From: an uncultured Opitutia bacterium
Lineage (GTDB): Bacteria; Verrucomicrobiota; Verrucomicrobiia; Opitutales; Puniceicoccaceae
Direction of reading: 5' to 3'
DNA length: 58,071 bases
Assembly (NCBI GenBank): GCA_913056175.1
Contig: CAJXLM010000014.1
Coordinates: 1 to 58,071, forward strand
Made by a program: the position numbers and the translations under genes. The notes under the pieces were generated by a model that saw nothing but the letters and a program-made list of their open reading frames with translations, ran no database searches and had not been told where the DNA came from. Positions within the stretch are counted from its first letter, which is position 1; every line of letters starts with the position of its first letter. This document shows positions 17,756-24,589 of this stretch, one piece after another.

Positions 17756-18715
17756 CTACTCGATGCGAATCTTGCCCGGGCCGCTGCGGCTGGGCGCGAG
17801 AATTTCTCCACCACGGTCCACCTCGAGGTTCTCCCCCTGGGTGAACAGGATGAGGGCCTCCCCGCCGACCTCCACGGTTTCGCTGGCCCCGGGCTCGAGG
17901 GAAGTGCGCAGGAGCACCTCGCCACTGGCCGCGTCGTTCACCCGTACCCAGGTGGGCCCGCTCGTGGCCCGCAAGGTGAGGGTGCCGCCCGCCGCTGCCG
18001 GTGCCGCGGGAGCCGCCGGCGCGGTGGCCGCCGGGGAATCGTCCGTGGCCACCACCGCGGTCTCCGTTCCCCCGCTGTCGGCCGGAGCCCCCGTGAACAC
18101 TTTGACGAGGGCGAAGAGCAGGATGATCGCCACGGTCACCGATCCAATGATCGCGACCACCTTGAGGTAGAATCCGCGATCCGGCCCCGCCGGACGGTCC
18201 CACTCCTCTTCCTCCTCCCAGTCGGCGGCGTCCGACCGTCCGCCGAGCCGGGCCCACTGGGGCAGCCGGAGGCGGGGACCCCCCGCGGACGGCATTGCTT
18301 CCTCCTCCGCCTCCGCGCCGGCGTCGTCCGGGCCCGGGGACGGCGGGAGAGAGCGGGAGCGGCGCCGCTGGGCCGCCGTCAGCTCCTTGTTGCGGCGGGT
18401 GCCGAGATCCAGATGCCCGAAGGAGACCCGAGCGTCCTCTGAGGACGAGGACCCGGGCGAGCGCCCCTGGTGGAGAAGGGCCTGCACCTCCCCGACGACT
18501 TCCTCGGCATCCTCGCCGAGGTAGTTCGCGTAAATCTTCGCGAATCCGCGCTGGTAGATCACCGGTAGCGGGATGTCGAAGTCCCCCTCCTCAAAGCGGG
18601 CCAGGTACTCGGTCCGGATCTTGGTGGCTTCCCCCGCCTCCCGGAGGGAAACGCCCTTGCGCTTGCGGGCGTCCTCCAGGCGGGCGCCGAGGGACCTGTG
18701 TACGGGCGGCGGCAT
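17756..18715 (-). CDS. RodZ-like helix-turn-helix membrane protein
   Basis: A 319-residue protein starting at the ATG at 18715. Residues about 8-75 form an HTH_25/Xre-like domain (LGARLEDARKRKGVSLREAG ... IYQRGFAKIYANYLG). A charged linker leads to one membrane helix (VVAIIGSVTVAIILLFALVKVF, about 175-200), a Pro/Ala-rich periplasmic spacer, and a DUF4115-like C-terminal domain (LRATSGPTWVRVNDAASGEV). This is the RodZ plan, which in rods links MreB to the wall machinery. Heading the secretion operon is unusual, so a regulatory or positioning role there is possible. Confidence 0.82.
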   Translation of the reverse strand: MPPPVHRSLGARLEDARKRKGVSLREAGEATKIRTEYLARFEEGDFDIPLPVIYQRGFAKIYANYLGEDAEEVVGEVQALLHQGRSPGSSSSEDARVSFGHLDLGTRRNKELTAAQRRRSRSLPPSPGPDDAGAEAEEEAMPSAGGPRLRLPQWARLGGRSDAADWEEEEEWDRPAGPDRGFYLKVVAIIGSVTVAIILLFALVKVFTGAPADSGGTETAVVATDDSPAATAPAAPAAPAAAGGTLTLRATSGPTWVRVNDAASGEVLLRTSLEPGASETVEVGGEALILFTQGENLEVDRGGEILAPSRSGPGKIRIE

Positions 18716-18805
18716 GTCGGCGAACGATGGGGCAGGCTCCGCCGGAGGGCAACCCCCGAGCTGCCCGCGGGAGCATTCCCCGCAGGCCGCGGGCGGAGCC
18801 CGGCG

Positions 18806-18834
18806 TTGACTCCCGGGCTCGACTGCCGTGATCT
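18806..18834 (+). promoter_or_regulatory. Possible purL promoter
   Basis: TTGACT (18806-18811) is followed after 17 bases by TGATCT (18829-18834). The -35 box is good and the -10 box is weak. If real, transcription begins just before the ATG at 18843, giving an almost leaderless purL mRNA. It lies in the divergent region between the RodZ-like gene and purL. Confidence 0.3.
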
Positions 18835-18842
18835 CTGGAGCG

Positions 18843-21275
18843 ATGGCCCCCCCTCCCGCCTCCCTCGATTGCAACGCGGTGCCGCGGGAGGAGCTGGGCA
18901 CCCTCCTGCAGGAGCACCACCTCTCGGTGACCCCCGGGGAAGCCCTCCACATCCAGAACGGGATCCTCGGGCGACCGCCAACCCTCGCCGAGCTTGTCCT
19001 CTGGTCCATCCAGGGCTCCGAGCACTGCTCCTACAAGAGCACCCGCTCCCTTCTCCGCCAGTTCCAGACCGAGGGTCCCGGCGTCCTCCTCGGCCCCTCC
19101 GAGGACGCCGGCATCGTGGAACTCGCCCGGGACCACGAGGGCCGCCGCTACGGACTCGCCCTCAGCCACGAATCGCACAACCACCCCTCCCAGGTGGTTC
19201 CCTATGAGGGGGCTGCCACCGGAGTGGGGGGCAATGTGCGCGACGTCTGCTGCATGGGGGCGAAGGTCGTGGCGGTGGCCGACGGGCTCCGCTTCGGCCC
19301 CCCCGCCGATCCGCATACCCGCTGGATCGCGGAGGGCGTGGTCGCCGGTATCGGCGGATACGGCAACCCCCTCGGTATTCCCAACCTCGCCGGCGACGTC
19401 TTCTTCGACGACGGCTACCGCGAGAACTGCCTGGTCACCGTGGTGACCCTCGGGGCCATCGCGGCGGACGGCATCCTGCACTCCCATGCCCCGCCGGGAG
19501 CGGACGGCCACGCCCTTGTCCTCGTGGGCAAGCCCACCGACAACAGCGGGTTCGGCGGGGCCAGCTTCGCCTCCGGCACCCTCGAGGAGGAGGACCGCGA
19601 GGCCAACAAGGGCGCCGTCCAGGAACCGAACGCCTTCCTCGAGCGGCACCTCCTCCAGGCCACCTACGCCCTCGTCGCCCGCCTCCGCGCCGAGAGCAAG
19701 ATGGCCCGCTTCGGTTTCAAGGACCTCGGGGCCGGCGGCATCGCTTGTGCCAGCGTGGAGCTGGCGGACAGTGGCGGCTACGGCGCGGAGGTCGAACTGG
19801 ACCGGGTGCCCCTCGCCGCCGAGGGCTTCCCCCCGCATGTCGTCCTCTGCTCGGAGACCCAGGAGCGCTTCCTCTGGGTGGTGCCCCCGGAGGAGGTCGA
19901 CGCGGTCCTCACCCACTACAACGAGACCCACGCCCTCCCCGAGGTTTCCGCCGGGGCCCGCGCCGCGGTCATCGGCCACATCCGCGAGGGCGGGCGGTAC
20001 CGGGTCACCCATCGCGGGGAGACCCTCGTGGACGCTCCCGCCAAGGCGGTCACCGAGGGACTCACCTGCGAGCGCCCCTATGTACTCCCCCCCGTCCCCG
20101 GCGGGAGCCCGGCCGCGGAGGAACCCGACCTGTCCGCGCTCGGCGACCCCACCACCCTCCTCCTCCGCCTCCTCGCCCACGAGAACATCGCCTCCCGGGA
20201 GTGTATCTACGAGCGCTACGACAAGAATGTCCAGGGACGCACCGTGGTGGAAGCCGGCGCAGCCGACGCCGGGGTGTGCCGCCCCTTTGCCGAGCCGGAC
20301 TGGCCGGAGGAAATCCGCGCGACCGGGGCCGCCCTCAGCCTCGACCAGAACCCGCGCTACAACCGGATGGACCCCCGCCTCGGAGCGGCCTGGGCCGTTG
20401 TGGAAGCCTACCGCAACGTCGTTGCCGTGGGCGCCCGGCCCGTCGCCCTCACCGATTGCCTCTGCTACGGCAACCCGGAGATCCCCCTCCAGATGGGCCA
20501 GTTCGTGGCCGGGGTGGCCGGTCTCGCCGAGGCCGCCGCCGCGCTGCCTCCACCGGACCACCCGGGCCATCCCCTCCCGATTGTCGCCGGCAACGTTTCG
20601 CTCTACAACGAATCCGGTGGACGCTCCATTCCGCCGAGCCCGATGGTCGCCTGCGTCGGTCGGCTGCCCGAGGCCGACCGGGCCGTGGGCCTCGCCGTAC
20701 CCGCCGGCCCCCACCAGCTCTTCCTGCTCGGCGCCCCCCCCACCACCCTCGCCGGTTCCCTCGCCGCGGAGGTGGGCACGGGCACCGCCGCCGGTCCCCT
20801 GCCCCTTCCCGACTACCGGGCGATCGCCGCCGAGGCCGCTGCGGTGATCGCGGCGGTCGAGGCCGGCGATCTCGCCGCCGTCCACGACCTCTCCGACGGA
20901 GGCCTCGCCGTCGCCCTTGCGGAAATCGCCATCGCCAGCGGGCGGGGGCTCGCGGTCGAGAGCGACCTCCTCGCCCGCCTCGGCGAGCCCGCGCCGGCTC
21001 TCTTCGGGGAATTCGGGGGCTTTCTCGTGGCGGCTTCCCCCGAGCGCGCCGGCGACCTGCAGGCGACCTGCGAGCGGCACGCGGTCCCCCTCCACGCGCT
21101 CGGATCGATGCGGGAGGATCACGACTTCCGGATCGGCGACCTCCTCCGGGCCGACCTCCCCCACCTCCACCACAGCTGGGCGAACGGGCTCCGCGAGAGG
21201 CTCGGGATGCCCCCGGTGCCGGTCGCCACGGAACCCGCTCCCGCCCCGGCCTATTCTCCCACCCCTTCCCCATGA
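18843..21275 (+). CDS. purL: Phosphoribosylformylglycinamidine synthase, small-type PurL
   Basis: PurL uses glutamine-derived ammonia and ATP to convert FGAR to FGAM. At 810 residues it is the small type (about 740 usual), lacking the N-terminal PurS-like and C-terminal glutaminase domains of the 1300-residue form. Motifs include SEHCSYKST, LSHESHNHPS, GGNVRD and the second-half KDLGAGGIACASVE. I prefer the ATG at 18843 over the GTG at 18828, although neither has a good ribosome site. The stop overlaps the purM start by 4 bases. This form needs PurS and PurQ as partners. Confidence 0.95.
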   Translation: MAPPPASLDCNAVPREELGTLLQEHHLSVTPGEALHIQNGILGRPPTLAELVLWSIQGSEHCSYKSTRSLLRQFQTEGPGVLLGPSEDAGIVELARDHEGRRYGLALSHESHNHPSQVVPYEGAATGVGGNVRDVCCMGAKVVAVADGLRFGPPADPHTRWIAEGVVAGIGGYGNPLGIPNLAGDVFFDDGYRENCLVTVVTLGAIAADGILHSHAPPGADGHALVLVGKPTDNSGFGGASFASGTLEEEDREANKGAVQEPNAFLERHLLQATYALVARLRAESKMARFGFKDLGAGGIACASVELADSGGYGAEVELDRVPLAAEGFPPHVVLCSETQERFLWVVPPEEVDAVLTHYNETHALPEVSAGARAAVIGHIREGGRYRVTHRGETLVDAPAKAVTEGLTCERPYVLPPVPGGSPAAEEPDLSALGDPTTLLLRLLAHENIASRECIYERYDKNVQGRTVVEAGAADAGVCRPFAEPDWPEEIRATGAALSLDQNPRYNRMDPRLGAAWAVVEAYRNVVAVGARPVALTDCLCYGNPEIPLQMGQFVAGVAGLAEAAAALPPPDHPGHPLPIVAGNVSLYNESGGRSIPPSPMVACVGRLPEADRAVGLAVPAGPHQLFLLGAPPTTLAGSLAAEVGTGTAAGPLPLPDYRAIAAEAAAVIAAVEAGDLAAVHDLSDGGLAVALAEIAIASGRGLAVESDLLARLGEPAPALFGEFGGFLVAASPERAGDLQATCERHAVPLHALGSMREDHDFRIGDLLRADLPHLHHSWANGLRERLGMPPVPVATEPAPAPAYSPTPSP

Positions 21276-22321
21276 GTGCAGCCGACTACCAATCCGCCGG
21301 TGTGGACATCGCGGCCGGCGACGAGACCGTCCGCCGGATCGCTCCGCTCGCCCGCTCCACTTTCGACGACACCGTCCTCGCCGGGATCGGATCCTTCGGG
21401 TCCTTCGTCGACCTCGGCCCCGTCCTCCGCGAGTACCGCCACCCCGTGCTCGTGCAGAGCATCGACGGGGTGGGGACGAAGGTGGCCGTGGCCCGGCGGG
21501 CCGGCTCCTTCCACGGCATCGGCCGGGATGTGGTCTCGGCGACGGTCAACGACATCCTCGTCCACGGGGCGCGTCCGCTCACCTTTCTCGACTACCTCGC
21601 CACCGAGCGCCTCGACCCCGCCATCGCCGAGGAGATCGTCGCGGGGATGGCCGCGAATTGCCGGGAGAACCATCTCCCCCTCGTGGGCGGGGAAACCGCG
21701 GAAATGCCCTCCACCTACCGCGAGGGAGAGCACGATGTGGTCGGCTGCGTGACCGGGGTCGTGGAGAGGGACCAAATCGTCAACGGGTCGACCGTCGAGG
21801 TGGGCGACCGCCTTCTCGGCCTTCCCTCCAACGGACTCCACACGAACGGCTACTCCCTCGCCCGGAAGGTCTTCTTCGAGATCGCCGGGCTCGGGGTGGG
21901 CGACCGTCCCGAGGGCCTGGGCGAGACCGTGGGCGCGGCCCTCCTCCGGCCCCACCTCAACTACCGGAAGCCGGTGGAAGCCCTCCTCGCGAGCGGTGCC
22001 GCCGTGCGGGGCATGGCCCACATCACCGGCGGTGGCATCCCCGGCAACCTCGGCCGGATCCTCCCCGCGGGCACCGCCGCCGAGGTCGAGACCGCCTCCT
22101 GGGAGATTCCTCCGGTCTTCCGGGTCCTCGCCGCCCTCGGCGAGGTCGCCCGCCCCGAAATGTTCCGCACCTTCAACATGGGCATCGGGCTCATCGCGGT
22201 GGTGGCTCCCGAGGACGAGGCCCGTGCCCGGGAAGCCCTCAGCGCCGTGGGGTCCGGTGCTCTCCCCATCGGCACCGTCGTGCCCGGGGGCGGAGAGGTC
22301 CACCTCGCCGGACGACCATGA
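21272..22321 (+). CDS. purM: Phosphoribosylformylglycinamidine cyclo-ligase PurM
   Basis: PurM (AIR synthetase) closes FGAM to AIR with ATP. The 349 residues match the family. Motifs include VDIAAGDETV (start), GIGSFGSFVDL, QSIDGVGTKVAVA, the Asn-Asp motif in SATVNDILVHGARPL, VGGETAEMP, and the C-terminal HITGGGIPGNLGRIL. It overlaps purL and purQ by 4 bases each, so the three are probably translated as a coupled unit. Confidence 0.96.
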   Translation: MSAADYQSAGVDIAAGDETVRRIAPLARSTFDDTVLAGIGSFGSFVDLGPVLREYRHPVLVQSIDGVGTKVAVARRAGSFHGIGRDVVSATVNDILVHGARPLTFLDYLATERLDPAIAEEIVAGMAANCRENHLPLVGGETAEMPSTYREGEHDVVGCVTGVVERDQIVNGSTVEVGDRLLGLPSNGLHTNGYSLARKVFFEIAGLGVGDRPEGLGETVGAALLRPHLNYRKPVEALLASGAAVRGMAHITGGGIPGNLGRILPAGTAAEVETASWEIPPVFRVLAALGEVARPEMFRTFNMGIGLIAVVAPEDEARAREALSAVGSGALPIGTVVPGGGEVHLAGRP

Positions 22322-23619
22322 CCGCCCGCGTCGCCCTCCTCCAGTTTCCCGGGAGCAACTGCGAGACGGAGTCGGCCGCGGCCCTCCGCCGGGCCGGGCT
22401 CGAGCCGGTGGACTTTCCGTGGAACCGGGACCCCTCCGAGCTCCGCGACTGCCAGGCCTTCTTCCTCGTGGGCGGATTTTCCTACGAGGACCGCGGGCGG
22501 GCCGGCATCCTCGCCTCCCTCGACCCGATCGTCGAGGCCCTCGCCGCCGAGGCCGCCCGCGGCAAACCGGTCCTCGGCATCTGCAACGGGGCTCAGGTGC
22601 TCGTGGAGAGTGGGCTGGTCCCCGGCCTCGCCGGGCGCCGCCCCGGGATCGGGCTCGCCCCCAACCGCCGCTCGGCCGGCGGGCGCTTCCTCGGGGCGGG
22701 ATTCTACAACGGTTGGTGCCACCTCCGCGTGCCCGCGGACAGCCTCGCCACCCCGTTCACCGGGGGGCTGGCCGGAGGCCCGCCCCTGCGCGTTCCCTAC
22801 GCCCACGCCGAGGGCCGCTTCCTCCTCGCGCCCGGCCTGCGCGAGGAGATCGAGGAGCGCGGGCTCGGGGTGTTCCGCTACTGCGATGCCGCCGGCCACC
22901 TCGCGCCGGACGCCCCCACCAACCCGAACGGGAGCACCGCCAACCTCGCCGGCCTCACCGATCCGACCGGCCGAATCCTCGCGCTCATGCCGCACCCCGA
23001 ACGGGTCCCGGCCGGGGATCCCCTCTTCGCCTCGCTCGCCCGCTTCCTCGCGGGCGAATCTTCGAATCCCCCACCCGCGCCGCCTCCCCTCCGGACCGAG
23101 GTCCCCGCGGCCACCGTGCCCGCGGGGACCCTCGCCCCGGATCTCGCCCGCTTGCCGATCTCCACGATCATTACGGACAACGCGGCCGTCTCCGTGGAAA
23201 ACACCCTCCGCCACCTCGGATTCTCCGCCTCGGTGGAGCGCCGCCTCCTTTGGGAGATGCCCCGGGAAGGATTGCCGGAGGACGCGGTCGAGCAGCTCAC
23301 CCGGACCGGGGAGCTCTTCAACCCGAACAAGGAACGGATCGACCGGCGTCCGCCCGGGCCGGAGGAGACCACCGCCCTCCTTCGCGTGCGACCCCGCGAG
23401 GACCTCCGGGGGCCGGCCACCCTCTCCGTCCTCCGGGAAAGTTTTCGGTTTTCGTTCCCCCGGGAGTTGCGCGGGTCCCTCCTCTGGATTCTCCATTTCC
23501 CCTCGGCGGAGGCCCGCGCGGCCGAGTGGCCCCGGCTCCGCTCCCATCCGGTCTTCCACAATCCTGTGGCCGAGGAAGCGGAGGACCTCTCCTCGCTCAC
23601 GTCCCATGAGATCCTCTGA
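22318..23619 (+). CDS. purQ: FGAM synthase glutaminase PurQ with extra C-terminal PurS-like region
   Basis: The first 250 residues are PurQ, a class I glutaminase that feeds ammonia to PurL, with the nucleophile C89 in GICNGAQ and the H226/E228 pair in MPHPERV. The family normally ends near 230-260 residues. Here a Pro-rich linker (about 250-275) leads to about 160 more residues. Part of this, VENTLRHLGFSASVERRLLW ... LFNPNKERID, has the order and spacing of PurS (an N-x-L-x-x-LG strand-helix and a late NP-x-hydrophobic motif). The last part ends with a second VFHNPVAEE motif. No separate purS is present between purL and purC, so fusion is plausible. It overlaps purC by 14 bases. Confidence 0.9.
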   Translation: MTARVALLQFPGSNCETESAAALRRAGLEPVDFPWNRDPSELRDCQAFFLVGGFSYEDRGRAGILASLDPIVEALAAEAARGKPVLGICNGAQVLVESGLVPGLAGRRPGIGLAPNRRSAGGRFLGAGFYNGWCHLRVPADSLATPFTGGLAGGPPLRVPYAHAEGRFLLAPGLREEIEERGLGVFRYCDAAGHLAPDAPTNPNGSTANLAGLTDPTGRILALMPHPERVPAGDPLFASLARFLAGESSNPPPAPPPLRTEVPAATVPAGTLAPDLARLPISTIITDNAAVSVENTLRHLGFSASVERRLLWEMPREGLPEDAVEQLTRTGELFNPNKERIDRRPPGPEETTALLRVRPREDLRGPATLSVLRESFRFSFPRELRGSLLWILHFPSAEARAAEWPRLRSHPVFHNPVAEEAEDLSSLTSHEIL

Positions 23620-24589
23620 CCTCCTCCACCACGAGCGCGAACTCCTCTCCTCGGTCGTCGCGGAGACCCACTGCGGGCGCAACCGGCGGGCCGGCAAGGT
23701 GCGCGACCTCTACGCCCGGGCCGGCCGGGTCGGCCTCGTCTCCACCGACCGGCTGAGCGCCTTCGACCGCGCCATCACCACGGTCCCCCTGAAGGGGAGG
23801 ATCCTCAACCTGCTCAGCGAGTGGTGGTTCGCCCAGACCCGCGACATCGTCCCGAATGCGGTCCTCGCGGCACCCCATCCCCAGCTCACCGTCATGCGGG
23901 AATGCCGCCCCCTGCCCCTCGAGTTCGTGGTGCGTGGCTACCTGACCGGATCGACGAGCACCTCGTTGTGGACGCGCTACCGGGCCGGCGAGCGGGACTT
24001 CGAGGGCCACTCCCTCCCGGACGATCTCCGCAAGAACGATCGCCTCCCCCAACCGCTGCTCACCCCGACGACCAAGGGTTCCCTCCACGACGAGTCCATC
24101 ACCGGGGCGCAGGCCGTCGACCGCGGCCTGCTCTCCGCCCCCGAGTGGGAGCGGGCCAGTGCCGCCGCGCTGGCTCTCTTCCAGAGGGGCACGGAGATCG
24201 CCCGTCGGGCCGGCTTTGTCCTCGCCGACACCAAGTACGAGTTCGGGGTGGACGAAGGGGGAACGGTCGTGCTCCTCGACGAGGTGCACACCCCGGACTC
24301 CAGCCGCTTCTGGAAGGCGGAGTCCCTCCCCGGCCGACTCGCCCGCGGGGAGGAACCGGAGAGCGCCGACAAGGAGTACCTCCGGCTCTGGTACGCGGAC
24401 CGGTGCGACCCCTATCACGACGAGGAACTCCCGGAGGCTCCCGACGAGCTCCGCCTCGAGCTGACCCGACGCTACCTCCACCTCTACGAGGAGATCACGG
24501 GCGGGCACGAGATTCCCTTCTCCGTGGACGAGGACCCCCCGCACGACCTACGGGCGGTCCTTGCCGAGTGGGACCTGCTCGAGGAGTAG
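23606..24589 (+). CDS. purC: Phosphoribosylaminoimidazole-succinocarboxamide synthase PurC
   Basis: PurC (SAICAR synthetase) joins CAIR to aspartate using ATP. The 327-residue length is longer than the ~240-residue E. coli form and matches the larger type with extra segments. Motifs include GKVRDLY, DRLSAFDRA, RGYLTGS, TKYEFGVD and DEVHTPDSSRFW. The ATG at 23606 lies 14 bases inside purQ. A strong hairpin follows the stop, and the operon probably ends there. Confidence 0.95.
   Translation: MRSSDLLHHERELLSSVVAETHCGRNRRAGKVRDLYARAGRVGLVSTDRLSAFDRAITTVPLKGRILNLLSEWWFAQTRDIVPNAVLAAPHPQLTVMRECRPLPLEFVVRGYLTGSTSTSLWTRYRAGERDFEGHSLPDDLRKNDRLPQPLLTPTTKGSLHDESITGAQAVDRGLLSAPEWERASAAALALFQRGTEIARRAGFVLADTKYEFGVDEGGTVVLLDEVHTPDSSRFWKAESLPGRLARGEEPESADKEYLRLWYADRCDPYHDEELPEAPDELRLELTRRYLHLYEEITGGHEIPFSVDEDPPHDLRAVLAEWDLLEE

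Follow-up and report, generated by a model that had tools for sequence, protein, structure and literature searches.

What does the surplus of a purQ gene encode when its reading frame continues far beyond the end of PurQ, next to a purL gene that has no purS beside it? FGAM synthase is needed by most cells that make purines, and within it the ammonia from the glutaminase is consumed by the synthetase. The initial annotation of the window (the whole stretch of 58,071 nucleotides analysed here, from an uncultured bacterium of the order Opitutales) had proposed that this purQ carries a fused PurS, and had suggested profile comparison with PurS and structure prediction of the extension as ways of assessing it. 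Here we describe the gene, the predicted fold and ancestry of its extension, and the distribution of the extension relative to free PurS.

The extended purQ gene and its neighbours

The features considered, all on the forward strand, are the following:

18828..21275, +, small-type PurL (TIGR01736 612 bits, PF18072 at residues 28-70)
21272..22321, +, PurM, from its translation; ATGA overlap with the extended purQ
22318..23619, +, extended purQ (PurQ plus extension), ORF from ATG 22318 to TGA 23619, 433 aa
22318..23052, +, PurQ body, residues 1-245 (PF13507/TIGR01737, T. maritima PurQ fold, invariant triad residues)
23053..23145, +, variable linker, residues 246-276, weakly conserved and of varying length in the alignment
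23149..23343, +, PurS-like repeat 1, residues 278-342 (ITDN.A.SVE..L..G ... GELFN.NKE)
23368..23586, +, PurS-like repeat 2, residues 351-423 (D..G...L..L..RF ... THIFHNP)
23606..24589, +, PurC, starting within the end of the extended purQ (14-base overlap)

The gene order is thus purL-purM-extended purQ-purC, with the extended purQ sharing 4 bases with purM and 14 with purC; the start codon of purL is either GTG 18828 or ATG 18843. The run from purL through purM to the extended purQ (or the contig's share of it) is conserved in the relatives whose loci were compared, and in several of them purC likewise follows. The adjoining PurL is of the small type, as initially annotated, and its linker domain begins at residue 28, which leaves no room for an N-terminal PurS lobe. 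The absence of a separate purS between purL and purC was also confirmed. Upstream, a RodZ-like protein (17759-18742, reverse strand; HTH_25 over its cut-off, RodZ_C just under) adjoins purL divergently, and a plasmid search gave no match.

The PurQ part of the product is a class I glutaminase. Specifically, PF13507 matched residues 3-230 with 143.9 bits (cut-off 27), and TIGR01737 was the best match over residues 4-230 (176.2 against 177.8; over, at 177.8, in a second search), both matches being confined to this part of the 433 residues. Cys89, His226 and Glu228 are invariant in the alignment, and the catalytic Cys-His-Glu is therefore present. In addition, the body in the full-length model (residues 1-245) superposed on T. 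maritima PurQ (3d54_D) with Z 24.5 over 203 residues, rmsd 2.0 and 36% identity.

The continuation of the frame to 433 residues, noted initially, was borne out: about 165 residues (approximately 268-433) lie past the PurQ body and linker. Across 15 aligned proteins, the extension is 24-46% identical to that of the window and contains 19 invariant columns, with two conserved blocks, ITDNxAxSVExxL...GELFNxNKE and DxxGxxxLxTLxxRF...THIFxNP. The extended PurQ frames of the order measure 428-449 aa with no internal stop (the window's own gene falls in an open frame of 923 when no start limit is set). Since the extension is conserved in 15 proteins, and in open frames of this length within the order, it is not chance read-through. 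Long spurious frames occur frequently in the window, whose DNA is rich in GC, and this would favour a chance open frame, or a frameshift or misassembly joining purQ to adjacent DNA; nevertheless, the same in-frame join recurs in many Opitutales and Spirochaetota assemblies, two of them single-contig, and the residues conserved throughout the extension already refute an artefact, to which we assign a negligible probability.

Predicted fold of the extension and its homology to PurS

AlphaFold2 was run on the extension alone with six sequences, and the best model reached a mean pLDDT of 74.6 and a pTM of 0.71; confidence is moderate, the other four models having mean pLDDT values of 49-57. When this model was compared with the PDB by Foldseek, ranks 1 to 14 were all FGAR-AT, the large PurL (E 5e-4 to 1.8e-3), and the first unrelated chain appeared only at E 0.094. 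VIA-align gave 18 FGAR-AT entries with Z 7.4-8.6 over 127-139 residues, the alignment always falling on the N-terminal domain, end to end and in sequence order. Next in rank were PurS chains, which cover the second half of the extension with Z 3.1-3.9, values that are modest alone. The full-length model shows the same elements, and in both models each repeat is built as strand-helix-strand-helix. By the predicted model, a PurS fold is present in the extension (its second half matching PurS and both halves the FGAR-AT N-terminal domain), and two PurS-like lobes in one chain adopt the FGAR-AT N-domain fold. In conclusion, the fold predicted for the extension is that of a PurS dimer in a single chain.

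Sequence profiles point in the same direction. With single pairs chosen beforehand, rather than a database search, profile-profile comparison gave P 2.8e-5 for half 2 against a diverse PurS set, P 2.5e-5 for half 1 against half 2, and P 4.4e-4 for half 1 against PurS; the PurS set was wider than the order, the order-only PurS alignment being too shallow. The alignment of half 2 with PurS pairs DLRG with DPQG, and HNPVAEE with NTVIED/NPVIED. In a controlled run, half 2 scored 27.4 against PurS (column shuffles 9.5 +/- 1.7; reversed PurS 10.3), half 1 scored 28.3 against half 2 (shuffles 10.2 +/- 1.9) and half 1 scored 22.9 against PurS (shuffles 10.8 +/- 2.5), and the observed score was reached by none of 60 shuffles in each of these three comparisons.

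These data revise the initial annotation, which had read the extension as one PurS. The order of motifs on which it relied (VENTLRHLGF...LFNPNKERID) is PurS-like, as proposed, but covers only the first of two tandem repeats, and the HNPVAEE tail that it singled out is the end of the second. A single PurS followed by an unrelated tail could draw on the PurS-like order of the first half and on that half's own profile link to PurS. It is, however, very improbable, as the second half is the better PurS match, the two halves match each other, and the fold match covers both.

The relationship is nonetheless a distant one. Pfam and NCBIfam HMMs gave nothing significant on the window's extension, PF02700 included. 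Among the 15 extended members, PF02700 matched two, below its cut-off (best E 0.061), being the sole Pfam family matched, even at this level, by more than one of them; NF005019, an NCBIfam phosphoribosylformylglycinamidine synthase model, also matched two (best E 0.033). The HMM of the FGAR-AT N-terminal domain, PF18076, did not match the extended purQ and gave only chance matches elsewhere in the host. Because no HMM family reaches its cut-off on the extension, its homology to PurS is regarded as remote, and the extension is not filed under PF02700. Medium PurL and clostridial-type large PurL were considered as possible sources of the extension. In profile comparison the former showed no clear link to it (P values of 0.038 and above), and the first lobe of the latter showed a moderate one to half 2 (P 7e-4).

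A search of the PDB with an HMM of the whole extension gave S. tokodaii PurS (2zw2) as its best match at E 0.55, to which we give no weight; with the profile of half 2 alone 2zw2 was lost, and chance gamma-crystallin matches appeared with no PurS.

Distribution of the extension and of free PurS

Searching the host genome (2.61 Mb, 84 contigs, 96.5% complete) with PF02700 revealed no PurS, under conditions in which 12 of 14 control genomes were positive. The initial annotation would have been contradicted by a separate purS together with an extension lacking a PurS-like fold; instead, no purS was detectable genome-wide and a PurS-like fold is predicted.

Of 52 genomes sampled from the order, host included, 11 carry the extension at E 2e-12 or better. 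FGAM synthase occurs in this sample in three main forms, namely short PurQ accompanied by free PurS (11 genomes; a twelfth, half complete, has short PurQ and no PurS match), extended PurQ without PurS (11 genomes, none with PurS) and large PurL (15 genomes, frames of 1242-1479 aa). Free PurS thus accompanies 11 of 12 short PurQs versus 0 of 11 extended ones (Fisher P 1e-5, uncorrected for kinship). When 372 genomes of the order were considered, 17 had the extension, 60 had PurS and none had both; as this zero overlap alone gives a chance P of only 0.047, the split by PurQ type is the stronger argument.

If large PurLs are divided further, no fewer than four forms can be told apart in the 52 genomes: PurL+PurQ+PurS, PurL with extended PurQ, and two kinds of large PurL, one having a PF18076 N-terminal domain and one of the clostridial type without a PF18076 match. 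One genome (G033, on a short contig) has a short, very divergent PurQ on a long branch, with neither a PurS match nor the extension, and belongs to the same family as a genome with extended PurQ. In a relative's genome of only about 0.8 Mb, a chance PurS match was seen within a 10,839-aa open frame (G044:C4:32223-32312).

The split between free PurS and the extension bears on an alternative in which the extension is PurS-like in fold and performs another job, such as regulation or the binding of another pathway enzyme, while a diverged free PurS missed by the HMMs serves the synthase. The HMMs miss the extension itself, so an equally diverged free PurS would be missed too; moreover, free PurS shows no evident equivalent of the invariant ITDN and GELFN.NKE blocks. 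Against this stand the split in occurrence described above, the retention of the complete two-lobe arrangement used by FGAM synthase, and the position of the gene next to purL and purM. We therefore consider this alternative unlikely, and favour a role of the extension within FGAM synthase.

The fusion is not peculiar to the host genome. Outside the order, 10 carriers of the extension were found among 81 relatives of a Sphaerochaeta MAG, two of the carriers being cut by contig ends and none having PurS; PurS was also missing from all 17 other relatives tested, and its absence from these carriers consequently adds little. All 20 extended proteins fall into a single clade of the PurQ tree (support 100/99), separate from the order's short PurQs, and the extended PurQs of Spirochaetia/Sphaerochaeta MAGs nest within it together with those of Opitutales. 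A single clade implies that the extended PurQ originated once and probably crossed from one phylum to another; the data suggest horizontal transfer of the extended PurQ between Opitutales and Spirochaetota, the latter assignment resting on MAG names.

A putative two-chain FGAM synthase

Known complexes contain two PurS per PurL and PurQ, and are treated as PurSSLQ (PMC3815217). PurS, or the domain that corresponds to it in large PurL, touches both glutaminase and synthetase, and the glutaminase more; for that domain the interface measures 1919 square angstrom with the glutaminase against 1033 with the synthetase (PMC3815217). Homologues without PurS work inefficiently, according to earlier work as related in PMC3815217.

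The locus resembles the PurL-PurQ-PurS system of B. subtilis and T. maritima (3d54) in its small PurL, its PurQ glutaminase and its pair of PurS folds. It differs in that PurS is there a free homodimer of about 80-aa subunits, while here two diverged lobes follow PurQ as part of one 433-aa chain, which is not a free subunit. The large PurL, or FGAR-AT, of Salmonella and human likewise has two PurS-like lobes per chain, and its domain is the one that the predicted fold matches end to end; in that protein, however, the domain is N-terminal on PurL and the glutaminase is C-terminal, whereas here the lobes lie behind PurQ and escape the PF18076 HMM. A third comparison is offered by the medium PurL (mdPurL) of some archaea, in which about 200 extra N-terminal residues occupy the place of PurS, five of six such proteins being from genomes without purS (PMC3261824). 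There too a PurS-like part is fused to another subunit, mostly without purS, but on the N-terminus of PurL instead of on PurQ.

All together, these data make it highly probable that the extended purQ encodes a natural PurQ-PurS-PurS fusion, whose covalent PurS dimer bridges glutaminase and small PurL in a two-chain FGAM synthase. The PurQ-PurS fusion first proposed was therefore right in kind and incomplete, the added part corresponding to a PurS dimer of remote homology. The extension most likely supplies the PurS2 scaffold of the enzyme. The two repeats would fold together in the manner of the N-terminal domain of large PurL, and would take over the role of PurS in keeping glutaminase and synthetase joined for ammonia transfer. 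Carried on a linker of about 30 residues, the pair would arrive as a complete scaffold with each glutaminase, and FGAM synthase would here consist of PurL and extended PurQ, instead of PurL, PurQ and two PurS, or of one large PurL. Such a chain may also fix the stoichiometry, as initially suggested, an idea that fits two repeats better than one, given the two copies of PurS for each PurL and PurQ in the known complexes (PMC3815217).

More tentatively, the two-chain enzyme may have had a single origin and been exchanged between Opitutales and Spirochaetota, its first PurS lobe having gained a conserved interface of its own (ITDN.A.S, GELFN.NKE) that couples or gates ammonia transfer in a manner unlike free PurS; we regard this extended scenario as possible, though doubtful.

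A PurQ-PurS-PurS chain would represent a further FGAM synthase assembly besides those already described. The literature searched, most subscription papers falling outside it, contained no published PurQ-PurS fusion, and novelty is accordingly provisional. Such a chain implies that the glutaminase is the proper partner of the PurS pair, in agreement with the larger glutaminase interface (PMC3815217), and provides a system in which PurS function could be tested through simple truncation. It would also explain the apparent absence of purS from these genomes, which an annotation pipeline would take to mean that the purine pathway is incomplete.

Finally, some phylum-level relatives have PurL frames, about 990-1050 aa long, whose N-termini match the PurS HMM. 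These repeats, unlike those of the window, still match that HMM, and show no clear profile link to the window's. Like mdPurL, these frames join a PurS-like part to PurL, and the two kinds taken together come mostly from genomes lacking purS. In several of these relatives the PurS-like repeat occurs twice in tandem (PurS-PurS-PurL). This arrangement is the bacterial equivalent of archaeal mdPurL, and gives another covalent PurS pair of natural origin, attached here to the other partner.
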